A stretch of DNA of 17,279 nt, taken from an uncultured Eubacteriales bacterium (GTDB taxonomy: Bacteria > Bacillota_A > Clostridia > Peptostreptococcales > Anaerovoracaceae). The stretch lies in assembly GCA_902790885.1 (NCBI GenBank), contig CADATR010000022.1:1-17279 (forward strand), given 5' to 3'. Under the pieces are notes generated by a model. That model searched no databases and was not told the DNA's origin. It saw only the letters and a program-made list of their open reading frames with translations. The position numbers and the translations under genes were made by a program. Of this stretch, positions 1 to 9,539 are shown piece by piece. Numbering within the stretch: the stretch's first letter is position 1; the number at the start of each line of letters is the position of its first letter.

Positions 1-1174
1 CCTTCACGCCGCTTCGCGCCTCAGCGTTCGCAGTGCGCGCGAACCTCATGCCCGGGTGCACCGTCGGATAGATCATCAGATCCGGATGCTCCTCCCGCAG
101 GCTGTCGAAGGCCGCCCTGTCGCCGCCCGGAATCCCGTCGGCGTATAGCCTTTTCACATTCATGCCGTGATCGAGAAGCAGCTTGGCAAGTCCGAGAGGC
201 CTCGGGCAGAATGTATAGTCGATGCTGACAGTAGTATCTCCGATCAGCTTTTTAGTCTCTTCGAGTTCTTTTTCGCACTCAGTCCTCAGCGCCGCGATCT
301 CTTCGCTGCTGCGGGCTTCGATGCCAAGCGCCTCTGCCAGTCCGGCGAATGTTTCGTCTATCTCGTCGTAGTCGAAGCTGAACTTCAGGGCATAGTGCCT
401 GCCGCCCAGTCTCCCGGACAGCATGTCGCCTCCCGGAGCCGCGTCCGGATTGTACGAGATATATACATCGCTTTCCGCCATCTGCTGGTACTCATCATAG
501 GTTTTGCACGAGGTGATCTCATGCACCTTCAGCCCCTCTTTCCTGAGGATCTTAATAAGATCGCTGTCCTCATCGGTCGGAAGATCGTTTCCTATGATAG
601 CGACAGCCCGCGGGTCCCTCTCCCTCTCATGCAGGAGCATGTAGAGACGCGACCTCATGAGCTGATCAGGCGTCAGGCCGCTCTTTCGCATGATAGGATT
701 CATGTAGCAGTCGGTGAAATCGATATCTGGGAAGCGCCTCCTCAGGGTGTCGTATATCATGTCGAGATCGACTCCCGTGAAATGATGCACGCAGCTTGTA
801 TATACAAGGACTGCAGGCGGGCGCTTCGGGAGCTTGCTGATTATATCCGACACTCCCTCGATGACGAGGTCTTCCATGTCTCCGTCGAGGAGGTTGTTCT
901 CACGGATCGCAACTGTGGAGAATCTGTCGGCAGTTCCCATCTCAGCAGCTGTCAGCACGACTCCGCGCAGGCAGCCCGCGGCGCACACGAAGATTTCGTG
1001 TGCCTCCGGGATAAGCATCCCGGTGTGGACTATGTTCCACGTGCCGCGGGCCGGAGATGAATACTCCAGCCCCGACCTGAACGGAGCCGGGAACGCCGCA
1101 TCCGCGATCCGCACATGAGGGATCTCATCAATGCTGAGTTTTTTATTCTGTTTTTCGTAAACTTTTTTTAGCAT
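1..1174 (-). CDS. Nitrogenase component 1-like protein (NifD/NifK family), 3' end off the window
   Basis: I translated this from the reverse strand; about 391 residues are visible before the left edge. It reads as an Oxidored_nitro (nitrogenase component 1) protein. The N-terminal third has Cys64 and Cys68 in FVCAAGC and Cys128 in VYTSCVHH, placed like the Cys residues that hold the P-cluster or the simpler 4Fe-4S cluster in NifD/BchN/CfbD relatives. Family members take electrons from a NifH-type iron protein to reduce a bound substrate, and the NifH-like gene is just upstream. The ATG at 1174 is the first start after an in-frame TAA; its Shine-Dalgarno (AGAAAG) is weak. No nif operon partners or FeMo-cofactor genes are visible, so dinitrogen fixation is unlikely. 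Whether it pairs with a second component 1 subunit or works as a homodimer cannot be seen. The family call is firm; the substrate is unknown. Confidence 0.88.
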   Translation of the reverse strand, partial: MLKKVYEKQNKKLSIDEIPHVRIADAAFPAPFRSGLEYSSPARGTWNIVHTGMLIPEAHEIFVCAAGCLRGVVLTAAEMGTADRFSTVAIRENNLLDGDMEDLVIEGVSDIISKLPKRPPAVLVYTSCVHHFTGVDLDMIYDTLRRRFPDIDFTDCYMNPIMRKSGLTPDQLMRSRLYMLLHERERDPRAVAIIGNDLPTDEDSDLIKILRKEGLKVHEITSCKTYDEYQQMAESDVYISYNPDAAPGGDMLSGRLGGRHYALKFSFDYDEIDETFAGLAEALGIEARSSEEIAALRTECEKELEETKKLIGDTTVSIDYTFCPRPLGLAKLLLDHGMNVKRLYADGIPGGDRAAFDSLREEHPDLMIYPTVHPGMRFARTANAEARSGVK

Positions 1175-1262
1175 CTTTCTGATTTTGTAATTTTATTACT
1201 ATCTTTGCATAATCGATCATTTATCCGAGCCGCATACTGATCGAAAAAAGGAGTTATTTATT

Positions 1263-1306
1263 TTTTTCTACATTTTTTTGAAAAAACGGACTTATATGTA
1301 GAAAAA
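1263..1306. repeat. Palindrome copy 1, arms TTTTTCTACAT / ATGTAGAAAAA
   Basis: Left arm 1263-1273 and right arm 1296-1306 are perfect 11-bp inverted repeats separated by 22 bp. The spacer itself contains six T, one G, then six A. Ten bases of the arm are shared with the dyad at 1461-1505. It lies about 90 bp upstream of the nifD-like start. It could be a paired operator or an mRNA hairpin in the leader; the sequence alone does not decide. Confidence 0.75.
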
Positions 1307-1460
1307 CCCACTCGCGATGTTCTGGTTTGTCTCCCGTCACCAGCCAAATTAGTTTAACATCGGACGAATCAGTCATTGTTGCGATAATCAGGCGCTACAT
1401 CTGATACAATCGTCTCGTTTCTTCAGATGAATTTATATACAGCCATCGTAATCGCATCTT

Positions 1461-1505
1461 ATTTTCTACATGAAATGCCTAAAAAGGCTCCCTCATGTAG
1501 AAAAT
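1461..1505. repeat. Palindrome copy 2, 13-bp perfect arms with a nested hairpin
   Basis: ATTTTCTACATGA (1461-1473) and its exact complement (1493-1505) flank a smaller hairpin GCCT-AAAA-AGGC at 1477-1488. The arm core TTTTCTACAT matches the dyad at 1263-1306. On the minus strand the element lies about 100 nt downstream of the nifH-like stop codon. It could act as a terminator-like or mRNA-stabilising hairpin, or as a DNA site for a dimeric regulator. It lacks a GC-rich stem followed by a clean U-run, so it is not a classic intrinsic terminator. Confidence 0.75.
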
Positions 1506-1515
1506 TTTTGAAAAG

Positions 1516-1591
1516 TCCTTTTCAGGATCGCTTTTCGGCAACTGACTCTTTTCAGGGTTGCCTTTTGCAGCCGACTCCTCACTCAAGTGAG
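1516..1591. repeat. Three closely packed short dyads after the nifH-like gene
   Basis: Dyads are seen at 1516-1527 (TCCT-TTTC-AGGA; on the minus strand the loop reads GAAA, a GNRA tetraloop), at 1537-1562 (GGCAAC / GTTGCC outer stem with CTGA / TCAG inside) and at 1578-1591 (CTCACT-CA-AGTGAG). The hexamer CTTTTC recurs at 1518, 1531 and 1548, followed by CTTTTG at 1562, so the stretch also looks like a degenerate short repeat. Together with the palindrome at 1461-1505 it forms four consecutive structures directly behind the nifH-like stop. Confidence 0.6.
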
Positions 1592-1601
1592 CCGCATTTT
1601 G

Positions 1602-2357
1602 TTAATTTTTGCAGATTTCCAGGAGCGTCTTCGCCAGCCTGCGGTATTCGCCTGCCATCTCGCTGTCAGGGAAGGCCTCGATAACAGTCTTGCCCAGATC
1701 TTCCGCGTCGGTGACCGTCTCGCTCCTGCTCAGCTCGCCTATCACTTCCGATCCGATGTCGGAGGCGAGCTCAGCGACCTTCGCGTCCTCATCGCGGACG
1801 TTCCTGCGGTTCAGGATGATGCCGCCCAGAGTCGCGTAGCCCCTGTCCCTGAATCCGTCGAGCGCGAGCGCTATGTTCGCGGCGGCGTGGATTGCCATGT
1901 TCTCGCCCGAGGTTATCACAAACACCTTGTCGGCATAGCCGCCGCGCATCGGCATCGAGAAGCCGCCGCAGACGACATCGCCCAGAACATCGTAGATGAC
2001 CACATCAGGCTTGAAGGTCTCATAGGCACCCTTCTCCTTCAGCTTGTCGAGAGCCGCGATTATTCCGCGCCCCGCGCAGCCCAGACCAGGAGTAGGTCCG
2101 CCGGCTTCGACGCAGATGACTCCGCCGTAGCCTTCCTTTACCATGTCCTGCAGATCGAAGGCATTCTTGCGCTCTCTCACGAGGTCGAGCACCGTCGTCA
2201 TCTCGCCCTGTCCGTGCAGGCTCGAAGTCGAATCCGCCTTTGGGTCGCAGCCGATCTGCATCACTTTGTATCCCATATCCGCGAGCGCGGCTGACACGTT
2301 CGACACTGTGGTCGACTTGCCGATCCCGCCCTTTCCGTAAACTGCTATTTTGATCAT
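1602..2357 (-). CDS. NifH-like iron protein (nitrogenase reductase family), 251 aa
   Basis: This is an ATP-dependent reductase of the NifH/BchL/CfbC family. Such proteins are homodimers with one 4Fe-4S cluster between subunits and pass low-potential electrons to a component 1 protein. Seen here: the Walker A loop GKGGIGKST (residues 8-16); the switch I-type segment GCDPKADST (36-44); both cluster cysteines, Cys94 in GLGCAGRG and Cys130 in [11 protein letters not shown]; and Arg97, at the place where NifH can be ADP-ribosylated. At 251 residues it is shorter than typical NifH (about 275-295). The ATG at 2357 follows an AAAGGAAA site. It lies between the ABC ATPase and the component 1-like gene, so its partner is almost certainly the latter. 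It is not called nifH because the nif genes needed for nitrogen fixation are not in view. Confidence 0.95.
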
Positions 2358-2403
2358 TTATGTTTCCTTTCTTTCAGCAGAGAGCCCTGGTGCTGTCTGC
2401 GCC

Positions 2404-2499
2404 CGGGTGCATGCCTGGTGTGTCTGTGTCCGGACGCACGCACGTTATGTCTGTTTCCGGGTGCACGCCTGGCGTGTTTGCACCTGGTTGCACGCAGCG
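2404..2499. repeat. 27-bp imperfect tandem repeat, about 3.6 copies
   Basis: Units begin at 2404, 2431, 2458 and 2485; the last is partial. Each starts CGG or TGG followed by a TGCACGC-like core, and they differ at several positions. The third unit can also fold on itself (CACGCC-T-GGCGTG). Because the unit length is a multiple of three, the plus strand reads as four similar nonapeptides of the form VC-x-R-x-HA, but nothing else supports a gene there. The array fills most of the 147-bp gap between the ATPase stop (2505) and the nifH-like start (2357), so it would lie in the leader of the nifH-like message. Confidence 0.8.
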
Positions 2500-2504
2500 C
2501 AGCC

Positions 2505-3626
2505 TTACTCATACGTAGTCTTTACGCTGATATCCGGTATGAGGCTCAGTCTGTGCGAAAGCGCTTCGATCTCAGACTCTGGCCCCTCGAGCATGACGCT
2601 GATGATGTATTTTTCCGACCTCCTGTGCGGAAGCCCCATCCTGCCTATGAGCAGGTGATTGTATTCCCTGAACGCTTTATTTATTAGGTCTGCCCTCTCG
2701 TTGCTCCGCATTATGACGGTCACGGAGGCAAGTATAGCATCATCCTTCTTCTCTGCTTTCTCAGGAGCAGCCGCGGCCGCACCGCTGGCTGTTTCCGTTT
2801 CGCCCGCTACCCTTACGGCCACAACATTCTTCATTATACTGCGCGGCGTCTCCACCTCGCCTATAAGGGCGTCGACCCCGAAGGCCCGCCTGATGTTCTC
2901 CTCAGTCACCACGCTTGTGGTATCCCCGAATATGCTCCTTCCGTCTTTTGAGAGCATCAGCGCCTTACCTGCCCTCTGCAGGGCGTGAGCCGGATAGTGC
3001 GTATTGAATATGCACGCGACTCCCTCCGCAGCCAGAGCCGTCATCGTATCGAGCACGATAAGCTGGTTTTTGAAGTCGAGGTTCGACTCCGGCTCGTCGA
3101 GCACCAGTATCTCAGGCTCGGCCGCCATCGCGCGCGCTATCAGCACCATCTGGAGCTCTCCGCCGCTTATGGCATAGCACGGCTTGTCGGCGAGATGCCG
3201 TATCCCGAGTCTGTCCATCACGGTTTCGGCGACCTGCATGTCTTCCGCTGAAGGAGCTGAGAATGCTCCGATGCGGCTGCTTCGTCCGAGAAGCACCGTC
3301 TGAAAGGCCGTGTATGACACCGCGGCCGATCTGGCCTGAGGCACATACGCCATCTGCCGCCAGAGCCTGGATGCGGGGATGCCTCGTATGTCTTCGCCGT
3401 CAAGCAGGCTGCGCCCGCCCTGCCAGTGAAGCATGTCCATCATGCAGCGCAGGAGAGTCGTTTTGCCTGCACCGTTAGGCCCCAGTATGGCGAGTATCTC
3501 GCCCGGCCCGACTTCTATATTTATATCTTTCAGTATCTGCGGGCCGTTCTTATACGCGAAGCTTCCGTTCTCTATCCTGAGAAGAGCACCGCCGGAGCGC
3601 GCACCGTTTTTCAATGCTTCGCTCAT
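2505..3626 (-). CDS. ABC transporter ATPase with C-terminal TM1266/ACT-like regulatory domain, 373 aa
   Basis: Residues 15-265 are an ATP-binding subunit of the iron-siderophore/B12 class (FecE/FhuC/BtuD type): Walker A GPNGAGKTT (49-57), signature SGGEL (154-158), Walker B ILVLDE (173-178) and H-loop His210. An Ala/Glu-rich linker (about 272-297) leads to a domain at 298-373 that aligns without gaps with the free 81-aa protein encoded at 4838-5083, sharing EY-x4-IGRMG(I/L)P-x7-IIS. That domain is the TM1266 family, an ACT/NikR-C-like fold annotated as a putative regulator of the iron-only hydrogenase system. Usual FecE-type ATPases are about 250-270 aa, so the extra domain is real. The ATG overlaps the permease stop (ATGA), showing translational coupling. 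By analogy with MetN's C-terminal domain it may gate transport by ligand binding (inference). Confidence 0.93.
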   Translation of the reverse strand: MSEALKNGARSGGALLRIENGSFAYKNGPQILKDINIEVGPGEILAILGPNGAGKTTLLRCMMDMLHWQGGRSLLDGEDIRGIPASRLWRQMAYVPQARSAAVSYTAFQTVLLGRSSRIGAFSAPSAEDMQVAETVMDRLGIRHLADKPCYAISGGELQMVLIARAMAAEPEILVLDEPESNLDFKNQLIVLDTMTALAAEGVACIFNTHYPAHALQRAGKALMLSKDGRSIFGDTTSVVTEENIRRAFGVDALIGEVETPRSIMKNVVAVRVAGETETASGAAAAAPEKAEKKDDAILASVTVIMRSNERADLINKAFREYNHLLIGRMGLPHRRSEKYIISVMLEGPESEIEALSHRLSLIPDISVKTTYE

Positions 3627-4645
3627 ATCCTCCAGCCTCCGCTTCTTCTCATCAGAACTATAAAGAACGGCGCGCCTATCATGGCCGTCAGTATCGATAC
3701 CGGTATCTCAGCAGCGGATATGCTGCGCGCCAGTGTATCTACGATTATCATGAACACGGCTCCGAAGCTCACGGAGGCCGGCACTATCGAAAGATGGTTG
3801 TTGCCGAAGAGCATGCGGCACATGTGAGGTATAAGGAGCCCCACCCAGCCTACCTGTCCGCACATCGACACGCACGAGGCAGTGACGGCGGTCGCGGCCA
3901 CGACGGTGACCCCTCTGAGCAGGCGGATGTTCACACCCGACGCCCTGGCTTCATCATCTGAAAGAGGCAGAAGGTTCATGCGCCATCTTATGAGCATGAA
4001 CACCAGCACTCCCGCTATGATGACCGGTGCTCCGAGAGAGAGCGTGCGGTAGTTGGCCTTGTCGAGGCCGCCCATCAGCCAGTATGTGATCGCCGGCAGC
4101 TGTGACTCCGCGTCGGCGGCAAATTTTACAAAGGATATGAGCGCAGAGAATAGCGATCCTATCATTATGCCCGAGAGCACTATGTAGCTGAGGCCGCCTC
4201 TGTCCTTGCCCGAGCCCGCCAGCCATGTAAGCATAACTGCCGCGCCTCCCATCGCGAGGCCCATCAGCTGAATTCCGATCAGATCGAATCCGAGCAGTAT
4301 GCCGAGGGCAGCGCCAAAGGCCGCGCCGCTTGCGACACCGAGCGTGTCAGGCGTAGCGAGCGGGTTCGCAAAAAGGCTCTGGAACGCGCAGCCCGAGACC
4401 GACAGTCCCGCTCCTACGAGCACCGCCAGTATTATGCGCGGCAGCCTCAGCTGCAGCACGGTCTTCTCTACCAGCCCGCTCGATACATGCTTCCCGGCCA
4501 GCGCGGCGCGAAGCACGTCAAGCACCTCGCCCGGCGAGATGGACATGCGTCCTATCCCGAGGGCGATCAGGGCTGCGGCAAACGGCAGCACAATAAGTAT
4601 TGCGATCCATGCGGCTCCAAGCCTTCCGTCTCTTCTGAGGCTCAT
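3623..4645 (-). CDS. FecCD/BtuC-family ABC permease, 340 aa
   Basis: This is the membrane subunit of an importer for iron chelates, haem or corrinoids. The family normally has 10 helices and works as a dimer with an ATPase and a surface binding lipoprotein. Seen here are hydrophobic helices throughout and the family signatures LRLPR (about 67-71), FANPLATPDTLG, GQVGWVGLLIPHMCR near residue 265, and the C-terminal run with PVSILTAMIGAPFF. Length matches the family. It overlaps the ATPase start by four bases, so the two subunits are made together. No substrate-binding lipoprotein is visible in this window; it may lie beyond the left edge. The start at 4645 has an AAGGA about 11 nt upstream. The substrate cannot be read from the permease; a metal chelate or corrinoid-like compound is the family norm. 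Confidence 0.95.
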   Translation of the reverse strand: MSLRRDGRLGAAWIAILIVLPFAAALIALGIGRMSISPGEVLDVLRAALAGKHVSSGLVEKTVLQLRLPRIILAVLVGAGLSVSGCAFQSLFANPLATPDTLGVASGAAFGAALGILLGFDLIGIQLMGLAMGGAAVMLTWLAGSGKDRGGLSYIVLSGIMIGSLFSALISFVKFAADAESQLPAITYWLMGGLDKANYRTLSLGAPVIIAGVLVFMLIRWRMNLLPLSDDEARASGVNIRLLRGVTVVAATAVTASCVSMCGQVGWVGLLIPHMCRMLFGNNHLSIVPASVSFGAVFMIIVDTLARSISAAEIPVSILTAMIGAPFFIVLMRRSGGWRI

Positions 4646-4715
4646 CTGCTTGTTTTTCCTTTTTTCTTTGTTGTACGGCGGCTCCCTGCCAAATCAAAAC
4701 AGCCCCGCTCCGTGT

Positions 4716-4792
4716 GAAGCAAGGCTGCGTAAATCATATCAAGCGAACGCAAATAAGCGTCCTGTTAAACGATCAGCGTCGCATCTTGCTTC
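4716..4792. repeat. Inverted repeat in the leader of the permease gene
   Basis: GAAGCAAGGCTGCG (4716-4729) pairs with CGCATCTTGCTTC (4780-4792), with a small internal mismatch and bulge. A second hairpin, ACGC-AAATAA-GCGT, sits inside at 4747-4760. The element occupies the centre of a 192-bp gap between the TM1266-type gene and the permease. It could be a folded leader RNA or a palindromic insertion. I matched it to no riboswitch class. Confidence 0.55.
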
Positions 4793-4837
4793 GGCCTCAA
4801 GCCCTCTTCATGGGATTTCGGCTTCAGGAGGATGTCT

Positions 4838-5083
4838 CTAGACTTTGGCGTAGGCCACCTTGGCATTGATGCCGTCGAGGCGTCCGAGCGCTCCGGTGAG
4901 TGAGTTTATCTTATCCATCGGGGCGTCAATGGCTATGCTGATGATGCTGATCCCCTTTTCCTTATACGGGATCCCCATGCGTCCGATTATATATGCGGAG
5001 TATTCATGGAGAAGATCGTTCAGCATTTCCACACGGTCGGCCTGCGTGACAATAATGCTTATCACGGCGACTCTTGTATCCAT
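4838..5083 (-). CDS. Stand-alone TM1266-family ACT-like domain protein, 81 aa
   Basis: This small protein has alternating beta and alpha segments and the core EYSAYIIGRMGIP (residues 27-39) followed by SIISIAID. It matches the family annotated as iron-only hydrogenase system putative regulator (TM1266), which resembles the C-terminal ligand-binding domain of NikR but has no DNA-binding ribbon here. The start is the ATG at 5083, with AGGAG seven bases upstream; longer readings begin inside the promoter. The equivalent domain is fused to the ATPase two genes downstream, so both probably sense the same signal. The NikR nickel ligands (three His and one Cys) are not evident, so metal binding is not claimed. 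A promoter immediately upstream suggests it opens its own transcription unit. Confidence 0.88.
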   Translation of the reverse strand: MDTRVAVISIIVTQADRVEMLNDLLHEYSAYIIGRMGIPYKEKGISIISIAIDAPMDKINSLTGALGRLDGINAKVAYAKV

Positions 5084-5114
5084 TGTTGATCTCCTGTTTT
5101 TCAGTTGTATCGTG

Positions 5115-5143
5115 ATTGTACCACACGGTCCGCCGCGCGGCAA
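5115..5143 (-). promoter_or_regulatory. Promoter for the TM1266-type/permease/ATPase unit, overlapping a palindrome
   Basis: On the minus strand the -35 is TTGCCG (5138-5143) and the -10 is TACAAT (5115-5120), 17 bp apart, with an extended TGG before the -10. The -35 begins directly after the MFS stop codon. GCCGCGCGGC (5132-5141), a perfect 10-bp palindrome, overlaps the -35 and spacer and could be an operator. The start codon is about 30 bp downstream. Confidence 0.6.
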
Positions 5144-6388
5144 TCACCTGTGGGCTTTAACCTTGCCGATGGTCGTGATCACAACAGCGGCTCCGGCAGC
5201 CGTCACTGCCAGCGAAACGAAGGCAAGTGCCTTTGCCCCCGAGGCATCCAGTATCCAGCCACCCGTGAAGCTCGCCGCGATGGTTGAGAGCACTATCATC
5301 ATCGTGAAGAGCGCCTGCCCCTTGATAGCCTCTCCCGGACTCATTATCTCATTGATGTAGTACACCATTCCCGGCATCATGAGAGCGAAAGCGACCAGCT
5401 GAAAGAACTGCGCCGCGAAGAGCAGCGTCACCGACCCCGCGATCCAGCAAATGGCTATCTTCGCCGTGAACCCTACCGAGGCCAGCCTTATGAGCGTCAC
5501 GCTCGAAAAATGTCTGCGTATCCTGTCGTAGAACAGCATCGTAGGTATCTCGAGCAGAGCCATCAGCGAGAGTATCCTGCCCACCTGCTCCGTGGTGCCG
5601 CCCACGTTGTCCGCTATCTGCGCCATGTAATTCGTCAGCACCGCATTGCTGAAGAACAGTCCCGCGACTCCCAGATTCATGATGAAGAAATACTTGTTGC
5701 GGGCAATGAATTCCTTCAGGTCTATCCTTTCGTCATCATGATCCGCGGCGCTCTCACTCTCCGCGTTCGCGCTTTCTGCAAGTGCTGCAGTTTTTTTCTC
5801 TGCCGTTTCGCGGGTCATCATCAGAAAAGTGTTTTTTGTGAGGAGCAGGAGCGCTATAAGCAGCAGGCATGCCGCCTCGGCGCTTACAGGCAGCACCATC
5901 ACGCCCCTTTTCTCGACGAGAGTCCCGATCACGGCGACTATTGCCGAGAAGCCGAGCGAGCCTCCCGCGCGGCCTATGCCGAAGCTCACATCGATACCGC
6001 TTTTGCTGAGCCTGAATGCCAGCGAATTGAGTCCCGGCTGCAGCAGGGCATGCACGGCCAGTATGAGCACTATGGCAGCGGCCAGCATGAAGCTCCCGCC
6101 CGCAAAGATAAAGTATCCGGCGCCGATCAGCATCATTGCCAGAGTCATGTATACAGAGCTGTCGATCAGCTTTATTCCCCTGGCCCTGTCCATGCGGTCA
6201 GCGATAAAAGGCTGCATCACAAATGCCAGCAGATTGGCAGCTGCCAGCGTCATTCCTATATGCATGTTGTCGTAGCCTTTCGCGAGCATAAAAACCGAGG
6301 CAAAACTGCCGATGATCCCGTAGACCATCCAGTATGCCCCGAAAGTTGTCGCGTATTCGGCATTAAGTATGAAAGATCTCAAGTCCAC
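5144..6388 (-). CDS. MFS transporter, LacY/MFS_1-like type, 414 aa
   Basis: This is a major facilitator protein with two hydrophobic halves, compatible with 12 membrane helices. They are separated by a long hydrophilic loop rich in Ala, Glu and Asp (about 197-226), as usual between helices 6 and 7. The segment FGIGRAGGSLGFS in the first half resembles helix 5 of the LacY-like subgroup. The start is a GTG at 6388, 14 bases after the stop of the hydrolase-like gene, with GAGGGAGA upstream. It is tightly coupled to the two genes before it. It may export a product or take up a small organic substrate for the cluster; direction and ligand cannot be told from the sequence. Confidence 0.88.
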   Translation of the reverse strand: MDLRSFILNAEYATTFGAYWMVYGIIGSFASVFMLAKGYDNMHIGMTLAAANLLAFVMQPFIADRMDRARGIKLIDSSVYMTLAMMLIGAGYFIFAGGSFMLAAAIVLILAVHALLQPGLNSLAFRLSKSGIDVSFGIGRAGGSLGFSAIVAVIGTLVEKRGVMVLPVSAEAACLLLIALLLLTKNTFLMMTRETAEKKTAALAESANAESESAADHDDERIDLKEFIARNKYFFIMNLGVAGLFFSNAVLTNYMAQIADNVGGTTEQVGRILSLMALLEIPTMLFYDRIRRHFSSVTLIRLASVGFTAKIAICWIAGSVTLLFAAQFFQLVAFALMMPGMVYYINEIMSPGEAIKGQALFTMMIVLSTIAASFTGGWILDASGAKALAFVSLAVTAAGAAVVITTIGKVKAHR

Positions 6389-6402
6389 AATTCTCCCTCA
6401 GA

Positions 6403-7095
6403 TCAGAATTCGTCCGGTGAGAACTCGAGCAGACAGTCGTACTCTTCCTGCCCGAAGAGTGCGATGTAGTCCGCGACCGCTCTGTCAATAATTGCCTTTG
6501 AGTCTTCAGGAAAATGTTTGCAGAGCTCGTCGGCGACCGCGCAGTAGATATGAGCTGTATGGAAGTTGAAGTCTCTCATGGCGCTCGTTCCTAGCTCGGC
6601 CTTTTTATCCGCCATCATCTTAAGCTCGTCTTCGCTCAGCGGCTTTCCCCAGTCGAAGTCGCAGCGATCTCCGCCCCAGCTCATCGAAGTCGTCAGAGGC
6701 GTACAGACAGCTCCGCATCCGAATCCTTCATAGACCGCGGCATCCACATTGACGCAGTACTCGCGTCCGTATTCAAGTATGTCGTATTTCTTCCAGGCCT
6801 CGCACCACGCGCACTTTGCGATGTACGTCTGATAGGTAGGCTCCGAACGCAGCATCCCGAATTCCATCTGGCCTGCGTAGTCAGGCTTCCATTCTCCGTA
6901 AGCCTGGTTTGTCCACAGATCGACCGGATCGCCTGCCTTGCGGGCGCGCTCAGCCATTCTGGCGCCGCGCTCTCTTCCGTAGCGGATCATGCCGGCCTGT
7001 ATCGCCCTGCGGCCCTCCTCGCCCTTCGCCTCTATGGCAGCGCGGCTGAGGAAGGCGAACATCATCGCCTGGTTCTCTATTCTAAGTTCTGTCAT
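6403..7095 (-). CDS. Cys-rich L-2-amino-thiazoline-4-carboxylate hydrolase-family protein, 230 aa
   Basis: The middle and C-terminal part match the ATC hydrolase family (PF14196 type): KCAWCEAWKKYDILEYG (94-110), REYCVNVDAAVYEGF (111-125) and TSMSWGGDRCDFDW (136-149). The founding enzyme opens a thiazoline ring in bacterial L-cysteine formation, but most homologues in anaerobes have no tested function. This one carries at least nine cysteines, including CAWC (95-98) and CGAVC (127-131), which hints at a metal or cluster site, or simply structural thiols. I chose the ATG at 7095 over an upstream ATG at 7167 because AAAGGTGAG precedes it and it begins seven bases after the flavoprotein stop. 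The family assignment is good; the role in this cluster is unknown. Confidence 0.8.
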   Translation of the reverse strand: MTELRIENQAMMFAFLSRAAIEAKGEEGRRAIQAGMIRYGRERGARMAERARKAGDPVDLWTNQAYGEWKPDYAGQMEFGMLRSEPTYQTYIAKCAWCEAWKKYDILEYGREYCVNVDAAVYEGFGCGAVCTPLTTSMSWGGDRCDFDWGKPLSEDELKMMADKKAELGTSAMRDFNFHTAHIYCAVADELCKHFPEDSKAIIDRAVADYIALFGQEEYDCLLEFSPDEF

Positions 7096-7102
7096 TATTA
7101 TC

Positions 7103-7963
7103 TTACTCACCTTTATCCATTTCACTGAGGCGCTCGAGTATGGCGTGAGCAGCAACATTGCCCTCACCGACCGCCTTCGCGATCTGATACGGCCTGCCCG
7201 TGCAGTCTCCCGCAGCGTAGCAGCCCTTGAAGTTTGTCTCCTGGCTGCGGCCCACCTTTATGTGCGCGCCGTCCATCTCAAGACCCGGGAGCACCGTAGA
7301 CGGCGCGATGGCAGGCCTCAGGATGAAGATGCCGTCAACATCTATCTTTGTGCCGTCCGTAAGCTCAATGGATTCGCACTTCATGCCGCCGTCGAGCTTC
7401 TTCACAGGCAGCTTCAGCACTTCAGCGTTCTCAGCGTCTGTCGTGTATCCGAAACTCGTATAGATGTACAGCTTTCCGCATACCTCCTCGAGGTACTTGA
7501 TGTCGTGTTCCATGCGCTCATCTGTGCAGTATACAGCAGCGGTCTTTCCCTTATACAGGAAGCCGTCGCAGGTCGCGCAATAGCTCACGCCCGAGCCGAG
7601 CAGTCTCGCCTCGTTCTCCATCCCCTTGGCTGCCGCGATACCCGTCGAAAGCAGCACGGTGCGCGCCTCAAACATCTCATTGTCGGCGAGTATCATGAAC
7701 GATCCGCCCATATCAGCAATATTCGTAACGCGCTTGTCGACAGGCTCCAGTCCCATTTCTTCAGCCTGCGCGCGGAACTTTCCGTTGAGCTCAGCGCCCG
7801 AAACCATCGCCACGCCCGGATAGTTGGCTATCTTCTCGGACTTGCCTACCTTGTCGCTCAGCTCATTGGAGCCGAACCAGATGATATCCTTGTTGTGGAG
7901 CTTCAGAGTGAGCGCCGCCGAAAGGCCCGCAGGGCCCGTTCCGATTATTGCAACATCAAACAT
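7103..7963 (-). CDS. Thioredoxin-reductase-like flavoprotein lacking the usual NADPH motif, 286 aa
   Basis: It has the TrxR architecture: N-terminal FAD loop GTGPAG (8-13), redox-active CATC (129-132) and the C-terminal FAD motif CYAAGDCTGRPYQIAKAVGEG (248-268). In standard NADPH-dependent TrxR the CxxC is followed by GGGxxA and HRRxxxRA. Here the same region reads TAAVYCTDERMEHD, with no glycine motif and no arginine pair. That pattern fits ferredoxin-dependent flavin thioredoxin reductases and related deep-branching enzymes of clostridia. It may therefore use ferredoxin (inference) and reduce disulfides of a thioredoxin or of a cluster protein. No thioredoxin gene is adjacent. At 286 residues it is shorter than the usual 305-320. 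It lies 28 bp after the HypB-like gene and seven bases before the hydrolase-like gene. Confidence 0.87.
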   Translation of the reverse strand: MFDVAIIGTGPAGLSAALTLKLHNKDIIWFGSNELSDKVGKSEKIANYPGVAMVSGAELNGKFRAQAEEMGLEPVDKRVTNIADMGGSFMILADNEMFEARTVLLSTGIAAAKGMENEARLLGSGVSYCATCDGFLYKGKTAAVYCTDERMEHDIKYLEEVCGKLYIYTSFGYTTDAENAEVLKLPVKKLDGGMKCESIELTDGTKIDVDGIFILRPAIAPSTVLPGLEMDGAHIKVGRSQETNFKGCYAAGDCTGRPYQIAKAVGEGNVAAHAILERLSEMDKGE

Positions 7964-7991
7964 AGTTTTTTATACCCTCTTTCTTATTGAA

Positions 7992-8669
7992 TTACATAGC
8001 CTTCGACAGCTCTATCTGGCGGCGAAGCCAGCTTATCCATGCGTCGAATCCTTCGCCTGTCTTTGCCGACACAAAGAATATCTCTGACAGCGGATTCAGC
8101 GCATGCACTCTCTCAACGAATGCCTCGTCGTCGAAAGCGAAGAACTTGCGTGTGTCTGTCTTGTTTACAAGGACAGCCTGTGTGACCGTGAACATCAGAG
8201 GATACTTGAGCGGCTTGTCATCGCCCTCAGGCACCGACAGTATCTCGATATTGATGTTGGCGCCTGTATCCTGCTCGGCTGTGCAGACCAGATTGCCTAC
8301 GTTCTCAAGGAACACGAGATCGAGGTCGGATGTGTCGAACTCATTGATGGCCGCCTGTGTCATCGCAGCATCCATGCAGCACTCTCCGCCGGTGTGGATC
8401 TGCATCGAGCGCACGCCGGCTTCCGCCATCTTCTCGGCATCTACCGTCGCCTCGATATCCGCTTCCATCACGCCAATTTTATATTCATCACCAAGAGCTG
8501 CGATGGTGCGCAGCAGAGTGGTGGTTTTGCCCGCACCCGGCGAAGCCATTACGTTCACCATGAAGGTCCCGTTCGCCTTGTTCTGCGCTCTTACATCTGC
8601 GGCGATACGGTCATTCTCTTCGAATATCCCAACGTTTACATCTATTACACGTACATTATTTTCTGCCAT
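7992..8669 (-). CDS. HypB-type GTPase, paralogue with Cys-Cys metal site, 225 aa
   Basis: This is a SIMIBI-class GTPase of the HypB family, nickel chaperones that load [NiFe]-hydrogenase. Motifs: P-loop ASPGAGKTT (42-50), EADI (69-72), guanine-specificity NKTD (169-172) and the strongly conserved SVPEGDDKPLKYP. In characterised HypB the G-domain metal site is Cys-His plus a later Cys. Here the first pair reads GGECCMDA (Cys97-Cys98), with His replaced by Cys, while Cys129 is kept. The N-terminal CxxCGC or His-rich nickel store is absent. The neighbouring HypB has the standard Cys-His, so this copy has probably changed metal preference or role. No hypA, hypC-F or NiFe-hydrogenase genes are in the window. 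Shine-Dalgarno is weak. Confidence 0.88.
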   Translation of the reverse strand: MAENNVRVIDVNVGIFEENDRIAADVRAQNKANGTFMVNVMASPGAGKTTTLLRTIAALGDEYKIGVMEADIEATVDAEKMAEAGVRSMQIHTGGECCMDAAMTQAAINEFDTSDLDLVFLENVGNLVCTAEQDTGANINIEILSVPEGDDKPLKYPLMFTVTQAVLVNKTDTRKFFAFDDEAFVERVHALNPLSEIFFVSAKTGEGFDAWISWLRRQIELSKAM

Positions 8670-8696
8670 TTCTCTATCTCTTTCTTTTACCTTACT

Positions 8697-8846
8697 GAAG
8701 CCTCAAAAGTTCCTCTCTCGGGTACGCCTCGCGGCTCAAAATTTGCGACGCATCTGTTATGGGCTCGAGCTTCGCGTCAAAACCGCTCGCTCTCCCCTCA
8801 TAACAGGCTGCAAATTGGCCCCTCGTTCGGACACTTTTGAGTCTTC
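8697..8846. repeat. Long imperfect inverted repeat between the two HypB genes
   Basis: The outer arms 8697-8710 and 8833-8846 are complementary over 14 bp with one mismatch (core CTCAAAAGT / ACTTTTGAG). Inside, AATTTGC / GCAAATT (8740-8746 / 8810-8816) and CTGTTATG / CATAACAG (8754-8761 / 8799-8806) nest in order, with a CGAGC / GCTCG pair in the centre. The whole 150 bp can form one long, interrupted hairpin. It fills nearly all of a 192-bp gap, so it is either a small palindromic repeat element or a structured intercistronic RNA. Confidence 0.7.
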
Positions 8847-8861
8847 TTTATAACAAATTTA

Positions 8862-9539
8862 TCAGTCTACGTACTCCAGGATCTCGCGTGCGCGGTCGCC
8901 GAGCCATTCTGCCAGCGCTATCACGCCCTCTCCTGTCGCAGCAGATACCATGAATACCGGCGCATCCGGGCAGCGCTCCGCCACGTACTGCTTGAATTTT
9001 TCAGGGCTGAAATCGAAGGCCTCCATTGCGTCTATCTTGTTTACCGCAACGACGTCTGCCTTTGAGAACATAAGAGGATACTTGAGCGGCTTGTCGTCGC
9101 CTTCAGGCACTGACAGGATCACGAGGTTGATCTGTGCTCCTGTATCAAACTCCGCAGGGCATACGAGGTTGCCGACGTTTTCGAGTATGACGATGTCGAG
9201 ATCCTGCGACCCTATCTCTCTGAGGGCCTGGCGGCTCATGTCCGCGTCGAGATGGCACATTCCGCCTGTGTGGAGCTGCACCGAAGGGATCCCGGCGTCG
9301 AGCATCGTTCTTGTGTCGACGTCTCCGTCTATGTCCGCCTCGAGGACTCCTACCCTGAAGCTCAGCCTGAGCTGCTCCACGAGCCTGAGGATGGTGGATG
9401 TTTTGCCCGAGCCCGGCGAACTCATTACATTTATATATACCGTCTTTTCGGCTGCCAGCTCTTCGCGCAGCCTGTCAGCATCCGCGTCATTATCCGCCAG
9501 GATGCTTTCCTTAAGGTCTATGATCCTTACTTCTTCCAT
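8862..9539 (-). CDS. hypB: HypB-type GTPase with the standard Cys-His metal site, 225 aa
   Basis: It has the full HypB motif set: P-loop SSPGSGKTS (40-48), EADIDGD (67-73), the metal-binding HTGGMCHLDADM (Cys95-His96), NVGNLVC (Cys127), SVPEGDDKPLKYP and NKID (167-170). It lacks the N-terminal cysteine or histidine-rich nickel-binding extension, as in many clostridial HypB proteins. Known HypB dimers bind nickel at the subunit interface and deliver it when GTP is hydrolysed. It is the first gene of the minus-strand block, with an AAAGGAAG site 11 bases before the ATG. With no hydrogenase genes nearby, it may serve a distant hydrogenase or supply metal to the nitrogenase-like system. It is collinear in length with the next gene, which suggests a tandem duplication. 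Confidence 0.92.
   Translation of the reverse strand: MEEVRIIDLKESILADNDADADRLREELAAEKTVYINVMSSPGSGKTSTILRLVEQLRLSFRVGVLEADIDGDVDTRTMLDAGIPSVQLHTGGMCHLDADMSRQALREIGSQDLDIVILENVGNLVCPAEFDTGAQINLVILSVPEGDDKPLKYPLMFSKADVVAVNKIDAMEAFDFSPEKFKQYVAERCPDAPVFMVSAATGEGVIALAEWLGDRAREILEYVD

Follow-up and report, generated by a model that had tools for sequence, protein, structure and literature searches.

Here we describe a gene cluster that probably provides a HydG-independent route to the H-cluster of [FeFe]-hydrogenase. It lies in a 17,279-nucleotide stretch of DNA (the window) from contig CADATR010000022.1 of an uncultured Eubacteriales bacterium of the Anaerovoracaceae (GCA_902790885.1), probably an anaerobe of the gut or rumen, and encodes, on the minus strand, a NifH-like reductase (NflH), a nitrogenase component 1-like subunit (NflD), and an ATP-binding cassette (ABC) importer. 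Relatives of the cluster combine these nitrogenase-like (NFL) proteins with a second component 1 subunit (NflK), and their genomic association with the absence of HydG is strong. In the route that we favor, NflHDK would make the iron-carbonyl/cyanide substrate of HydE from a precursor that is either imported or made by HypFCDE and a second NFL; its chemistry is inferred. The CO and CN ligands of [FeFe]-hydrogenase are attributed to HydG, for which the cluster is a concrete, testable candidate substitute. The cluster could explain how HydG-less bacteria manage H-cluster assembly.

Nitrogenase-like genes and the absence of HydG

Relatives of NflD were collected in one scan of GTDB-species contigs, which yielded 155 confirmed loci; the best 80 of the 155 were kept. 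Most were Clostridia represented by rumen and gut metagenome-assembled genomes (MAGs), and several of those nearest to the window were titled Mogibacterium sp.; two loci came from named strains, Clostridium thailandense (L069) and Clostridium luticellarii (L077). A protein search scored 4,351 relatives, and the few names among the best 120 of these were again Mogibacterium. Components were counted, unless stated otherwise, at loci with enough flanking sequence. NflH was encoded at 74/74 loci and NflK, beside NflD, at 74/74; a substrate-binding lipoprotein (SBP) was found at 61/67, the importer ATPase at 60/67, the FecCD-type permease at 57/64, and a TM1266 family protein at 58/60. These six components form the conserved core. 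A first-pass annotation of the window, made from its letters alone, had linked the reductase to an importer and pointed past the left edge of the window for a second component 1 and a binding lipoprotein. Relatives bear this out, since both genes are there and the SBP, FecCD, and ATPase genes stay with NFL.

The first pointer toward hydrogenase was TM1266, because NCBI titles the corresponding model, TIGR03959, "iron-only hydrogenase system putative regulator." HydE was encoded at 25/67 loci and HydF at 19/62, and at 38 of the 80 loci one or the other lay on the same strand within the cluster. The in-cluster proteins scored well above the profile cut-offs (HydE, 521 and 539 bits against 254.6; HydF, 572 and 564 bits against 325.6).

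Thirty-seven genomes chosen from the 80 loci were then searched genome-wide with profiles for HydE (TIGR03956), HydF (TIGR03918), HydG (TIGR03955; cut-off, 312 bits), and [FeFe]-hydrogenase (PF02906). Hydrogenase was found in 37/37 genomes, HydE was over its cut-off in 37/37, and HydF was over its cut-off in 35/37. HydG was over its cut-off in only three (G014, G019, and G032, the last being C. thailandense). The best HydG-profile match in the other 34 reached 217 bits (C. luticellarii) and ended at position 382 of the 470 in the profile. Since HydE and HydF were nearly always found, incomplete MAGs are an unlikely cause of the missing HydG. By the motif patterns that we take to mark the H-cluster of HydA, 11 hydrogenase loci carried all three motifs in seven cases, two in one case, and one in three cases.

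As a control, 391 genomes from the class of C. thailandense were searched for NFL, HydE, and HydG. An NFL match of at least 450 bits was taken to denote the cluster types A and B described below. HydE was over its cut-off in 257 genomes and HydG in 241, nine of which had no HydE over its cut-off. NFL of types A and B occurred in 16/391 genomes, all 16 of them HydE positive. HydG was present in 1/16 HydE-positive genomes with NFL versus 231/241 without it (Fisher P = 7e-17, relatedness ignored). When G032 and G035, already among the 37, were removed, HydG was present in 0/14. Among near relatives of the window's host, the genomes of L001, L002, and L007 (NflD 88 to 90% identical) and of L011 (81%) were tested, and all were without HydG.

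The importer and HypFCDE with a second NFL replace one another

The clusters fell into two main architectures. Type A, that of the window, comprises TM1266, FecCD, ATPase, often HydE, NflH, NflD, NflK, SBP, and often HydF. Type B comprises NflH', NflD', NflK', HypF, HypC, HypD, and HypE, followed by NflD and NflK, and has no importer; the HydG-less C. luticellarii is of this type. Seven type B loci (L086 to L088, L090 to L092, and L094) also carried TM1266 and HydF in the cluster, three of them with HydE. Among the Hyp proteins of L069, three were over their cut-offs (HypF, 776 bits; HypD, 388; HypE, 427). HypE ended in PRIC in 12/12 printed sequences, and HypD kept CGTH in 12/12. In six relatives of the window (G010, G016, G427, G428, G438, and G432), the Hyp set stood apart from NflHDK, behind NflH'D'K' (L109, L110, and L117 to L120); L121 (G437) was cut at HypF. 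NflH' or NflD' lay upstream of HypF in 16/16 NFL-linked hyp loci that were uncut at that point, a count that excludes L081, the other hyp set of C. thailandense.

The importer SBP profile and HypD were searched genome-wide in 82 genomes with NFL of type A or B. SBP alone was found in 63 genomes and HypD alone in 16, whereas two (those of L009 and L028) had both and one (that of L053) had neither (P = 6e-14, relatedness ignored). At least 9 changes of the importer state and at least 10 of the HypD state are needed on the NflD tree. L006, among the nearest tree neighbors of the window, had HypD and lacked the importer. In L023, where the importer was absent, HypD was expected beforehand from the exchange rule and was then found. 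These data show that the importer and HypFCDE with NflH'D'K' replace one another, which implies that the two provide the same thing. The SBP profile matched 4ovk, a binding protein without an assigned ligand, as well as HI_1472 (MolA) and binders of iron or nickel, and so points to no single ligand of the importer.

A third arrangement, type C, consists of NFL with SBP, permease, and ATPase. In the class sample, it was found in G109, G185, and G216, whose NFL matches were weaker (309 to 321 bits) and in which HydG was present, and in G178 (288 bits), which had no HydE match and no HydG. G306 had an NFL match of 177 bits and also had HydG. Two plasmids carry NFL with SBP, permease, and ATPase: pTS1 of Treponema saccharophilum (L122, 9001 to 15297) and pSPTER of Sporomusa termitida (L106, 4949 to 12273). 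No hydrogenase gene was annotated in the stretches of L122 and L106 that were read.

The NflHDK proteins and a proposed route to the H-cluster

In the window, nflH occupies positions 1602 to 2357 on the minus strand (Fer4_NifH, PF00142; 292.5 bits), and nflD occupies positions 2 to 1174 on the same strand, with its 3' end past the left edge (Oxidored_nitro, PF00148; 70.4 bits). The gap between them is 427 bases (1175 to 1601); judged by called frames, the corresponding distance in 11 close relatives lies between -28 and 382 bases. NflH fell below the NCBIfam cut-offs for nifH (321 versus 394 bits), CfbC (312 versus 402), BchL (194.5 versus 345), and BchX (165.2 versus 331). The window's NflD matched no nifD, nifK, nifE, or nifN model at an E value of ≤0.001, and its sole NCBIfam match was to the BchN model, at 22 bits against a cut-off of 324. 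In Foldseek searches, AlphaFold models placed NflD (pLDDT, 82.6) and NflK (76.7) among component 1 proteins; for the L002 ortholog of NflD, the PDB entries matched were those of Mar as well as NifEN and nitrogenases.

The cluster cysteines noted by the first-pass annotation are present, NflH carrying Cys94 and Cys130 and NflD carrying Cys64, Cys68, Cys128, and Cys156, which are invariant in 25/25 aligned NflD sequences. Cys64 (by spacing) and Cys128 (by alignment) sit at the places of NifD Cys88 and Cys154, with Cys68 in addition. NflK Cys37 is kept in 19/19 aligned sequences; a third P-cluster cysteine was looked for in NflK and not found, NifD Cys154 aligning with the invariant Pro96. As for the ligands of FeMo-co, Cys275 and His442, no invariant cysteine lies near the aligned position of Cys275, where the sequence alignment is weak. 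NflD/NflK likely holds a single bridging [4Fe-4S] cluster, and FeMo-co is not expected.

Quick trees were built with plasmid-borne nif, bch, and Mar-like references and without a Cfb or Isr reference; the two Mar-like loci (L123 and L124) were recognized as such by their neighbors only. The D proteins (NflD, NflD', and four of type C) grouped in a single clade (SH-aLRT, 99), as did the K proteins in theirs (SH-aLRT, 100), both clades being apart from the references. The NflH set, including that of L106, held together less firmly (bootstrap, 80; SH-aLRT, 97) and was apart from BchL. The proteins are thus nitrogenase-like and outside the nif, bch, and Mar-like references, as had been proposed, and no tree placed the pair firmly within nif, bch, cfb, or mar, a result obtained without a cfb reference. 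The D and K proteins of the Sporomusa plasmid (L106) lay outside both clades on long branches. The NflD of L105 (G391) was on a very long branch (1.77) and was unlinked from the NflH'D'K'-HypFCDE locus of that genome (L104).

HydE takes on an iron unit made by HydG. Without HydG, this iron-carbonyl/cyanide unit must come from something else. We propose that NflHDK, driven by ATP and low-potential electrons, would deliver this unit to HydE as HydG normally does, and that HydE and HydF would then complete the cofactor. NflHDK, which types A and B share, would act in the last reductive step before HydE. Type A bacteria would take up the precursor by way of the FecCD-type importer. In type B, cyanide would be made from carbamoyl phosphate by HypF and HypE, HypCD would hold the iron as a carrier, and NflH'D'K' would carry out a reduction on HypCD, perhaps making CO. 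Such a route would join the [NiFe] and [FeFe] assembly machineries, would likely give the nitrogenase superfamily a new role, and bears on hydrogen production in the rumen and gut. It is also conceivable, although we consider it unlikely, that type A bacteria, the window's host included, are auxotrophs that import a small iron-cyanide (or cyanide/carbonyl) complex made by type B bacteria with HypFCDE and NflH'D'K'; the 79 of 82 genomes with exactly one of SBP and HypD, together with the 9 or more changes of importer state, were counted as support. If true, gut and rumen communities would share this complex as an organometallic "hydrogenase vitamin," much as they share corrinoids.

Several observations weigh against the proposed route. 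Three genomes carry NFL and HydG together, and HydF was not found in G020 and G030. Ten HydE-positive genomes of the class sample (G102, G111, G136, G197, G220, G252, G295, G320, G346, and G370) have neither HydG nor NFL of type A or B. The absence of HydG is therefore not always accounted for by NFL; these genomes are either incomplete or use yet another route. HydE and HydF are absent from the window, and its 31 closest loci include HydE in nine cases and HydF in none. For the window's host, we infer the absence of HydG from the tested relatives L001, L002, L007, and L011. The genomes are related, and the P values ignore this kinship. In a relatedness-aware test of the importer/HypD exchange, five pairs were found on well-supported branches, with 3.8 on average changing in opposite directions and 0 in the same direction; with just five pairs and a P value of about 0.125, this is suggestive only. 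Finally, because type C occurs in three HydG-positive genomes and in the HydE-less G178, the module of importer and NFL can serve something else.

These points leave room for other explanations. NflHDK and the importer could act in H-cluster assembly or repair at a step other than that of HydG (for example, in iron supply or reduction or in regulation through TM1266), with CO and CN coming from an unrecognized enzyme, a divergent HydG, or the environment. We regard this as unlikely. In vitro, trace diatomics allow approximately 1% activation by HydE and HydF when HydG is left out, and for acetogens a HydG-like candidate whose motifs are atypical has been proposed, a possible divergent one being named in all but C. 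autoethanogenum (excerpts of PMC9431212). The importer class carries iron chelates as well, and the SBP profile includes iron, nickel, and MolA-type binders among its matches. However, the absence of HydG from 15/16 sampled genomes with NFL of type A or B fits a substitution better than an add-on, the set that takes the importer's place, HypFCDE, is a known cyanide-making one, and the top sub-cut-off HydG match in the 34 genomes is the one given above, at 217 bits and ending at profile position 382.

The importer might instead take up a metallophore or a corrinoid-like or thiazoline compound, which NflHDK would reduce for a purpose unrelated to hydrogenase. The type C clusters of the T. saccharophilum and S. 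termitida plasmids and of G178, with no hyd gene beside them, favor such a role, and siderophore reduction was retained as a rival only. For types A and B we find it improbable, since these clusters sit with TM1266, often with HydE or HydF, nearly exclude HydG, and in 50/63 cases have a TM1266-like domain fused to the importer ATPase. The neighbors and the genome-wide pattern indicate the H-cluster of [FeFe]-hydrogenase. The option of the first-pass annotation that "a metal cofactor is built" agrees with this; the processing of corrinoid, thiazoline-metallophore, or tetrapyrrole substrates is not supported as the main interpretation.

A role in nickel metabolism, with HypB inserting nickel and NFL building a nickel cofactor for [NiFe]-hydrogenase or another nickel enzyme, was raised by the two HypBs of the window, both over the cut-off, and by the HypFCDE set beside NflH'D'K' in type B. 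The search for the [NiFe] large subunit led us to drop it as highly improbable. Of 22 NFL genomes, three had the subunit; two of these were of type C, one with a fragment, and the third was C. thailandense. Among the 13 type B genomes tested, only C. thailandense had it, on the contig that carries its second hypD, and it was absent from 5/5 type A genomes tested, a set outside which the window's nearest relatives lie. HypFCDE is therefore very unlikely to serve a [NiFe]-hydrogenase here. HypB is outside the conserved core, and HypD was absent from 33 of the first 37 NFL genomes, including those of L001, L002, and L007; the HypBs of the window thus seem to be without their ordinary partners.

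The remaining genes of the window and comparison with known systems

The ten genes lie on a single strand at the positions first annotated, and Pfam and NCBIfam profile scores support their assignments. Read along the minus strand, the order is HypB, HypB, TrxR-like, ATC-hydrolase-like, MFS, TM1266, FecCD, ABC ATPase, NflH, and NflD. The first-pass annotation left unnamed the separate TM1266 gene (4838 to 5083; TIGR03959, 108.5 bits against a cut-off of 60.8) and the TM1266-like C terminus of the importer ATPase. The ATPase gene (2505 to 3626; PF00005 and PF21699) encodes this domain at residues 300 to 370, and BLAST found the piece in the 50/63 importer ATPases cited above, that of the window among them. 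The permease gene lies at 3623 to 4645 (PF01032, 270.4 bits).

The other five genes are accessory. HypB-type GTPase 1 (8862 to 9539; TIGR00073, 219.3 bits) has a Cys-His pair (GMCHLDAD), and HypB-type GTPase 2 (7992 to 8669; 220.9 bits; cut-off for both, 121.2) has a Cys-Cys pair (GECCMDAA), at positions that we take to be the usual HypB metal site. The TrxR-like flavoprotein (7103 to 7963) scored 160 bits with TIGR01292, below the cut-off of 343. It keeps a CATC motif; GxGxxA, which we take to be the motif of an NADPH site, was not seen by eye in the second Rossmann domain, so the protein may not use NADPH. The ATC-hydrolase-family gene (6403 to 7095, with 7095 taken as its start from the open reading frame; PF14196, 92.4 bits) adjoins a system that may handle cyanide. 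ATC (2-aminothiazoline-4-carboxylate) is a cysteine-cyanide adduct, which makes this neighbor of interest as a lead only. The MFS transporter (5144 to 6388; PF12832, 80.8 bits) occurs in close relatives only.

HypB was found at 13/47 loci with flank, TrxR at 16/49, ATC-hydrolase at 15/53, and MFS at 11/54. Over all 80 loci, HypB occurred at 15/31 close loci and at 0/49 distant ones; among the 49 distant loci, TrxR and ATC-hydrolase each occurred once and MFS not at all. HydE and HypB occurred together in 4 of the 80 loci. HypB, TrxR, and ATC-hydrolase are probably lineage-specific helpers. The expectation that the ten families would stay together thus held for a core of NflH, NflK, SBP, FecCD, ATPase, and TM1266 and not for HypB, TrxR, ATC-hydrolase, and MFS, which are found mainly in close relatives. 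Scanning the window with Rfam and for tRNAs produced no match, and its promoter and terminator signals stayed within two standard deviations of those in shuffled sequence.

An association of this kind has been described before. In one sentence, Dos Santos et al. (2012; PMC3464626) note that Coprococcus catus and other Firmicutes encode NifHEN-like proteins close to their hydrogenase maturation genes and suggest that these proteins may help assemble the active-site metallocluster. By description rather than sequence, this is very likely the association found here; the passages of that paper available to us contain nothing on HydG loss, the importer/Hyp exchange, a second NFL, or the absence of [NiFe]-hydrogenase. 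In a survey of eight acetogenic Clostridium species, Di Leonardo et al. (2022; PMC9431212, in excerpts as above) looked for HydG by its known motifs, missed it in five, and saw no straightforward explanation for its absence. They also reported five species that have HypCDEF but no HypAB, each with one [NiFe] hydrogenase. Because of that hydrogenase, these acetogens are not clean type B cases. Among the matches listed in the open-access literature, no paper tied nitrogenase-like proteins to missing HydG, with subscription journals and bioRxiv outside the search. The system is, as first supposed, apparently undescribed.

F430, tetrapyrrole, Mar, and Isr roles were dropped on family scores, neighbors, cysteines, and trees, the last without a Cfb or Isr reference. 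CfbCD and DPOR/COR resemble the present system in pairing a NifH-like reductase with a component 1 in which no FeMo-co is expected, but NflH is below the CfbC, BchL, and BchX cut-offs, and Cfb is without the K subunit that NFL has in NflK. The group IV NFLs IsrBHDK (isethionate reductase) and MarBHDK (methylthio-alkane reductase) share H, D, and K subunits and a radical SAM partner with it, and Isr also has an ABC importer; here, however, the radical SAM enzyme, where present, is HydE. Unlike Mar, the window has no sulfur-assimilation, NifB-like, or sulfhydrylase genes, and NflD and NflK are apart from the Mar-like references. IsrBHDK is a different NFL from the present one, IsrD keeping just one of the three P-cluster cysteines (excerpts of PMC11423573), whereas NflD keeps Cys64, Cys68, and Cys128.

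The closest parallels lie in hydrogenase maturation. Tyrosine is the substrate from which HydG generates CO and CN, which are released either within an Fe(CO)2CN unit or as free diatomics (excerpts of PMC9431212). The relatives of the window share HydE, HydF, and [FeFe]-hydrogenase, along with TM1266 proteins, with the HydEFG system, but this known source of CO and CN is missing in 34/37, and NflHDK with an importer or HypFCDE is found instead. Type B clusters likewise carry the Hyp proteins of [NiFe]-hydrogenase maturation, HypCDEF, yet 12 of 13 type B genomes tested are without the [NiFe] large subunit and the hyp set is linked to NflH'/NflD' in 16/16 uncut NFL-linked loci.

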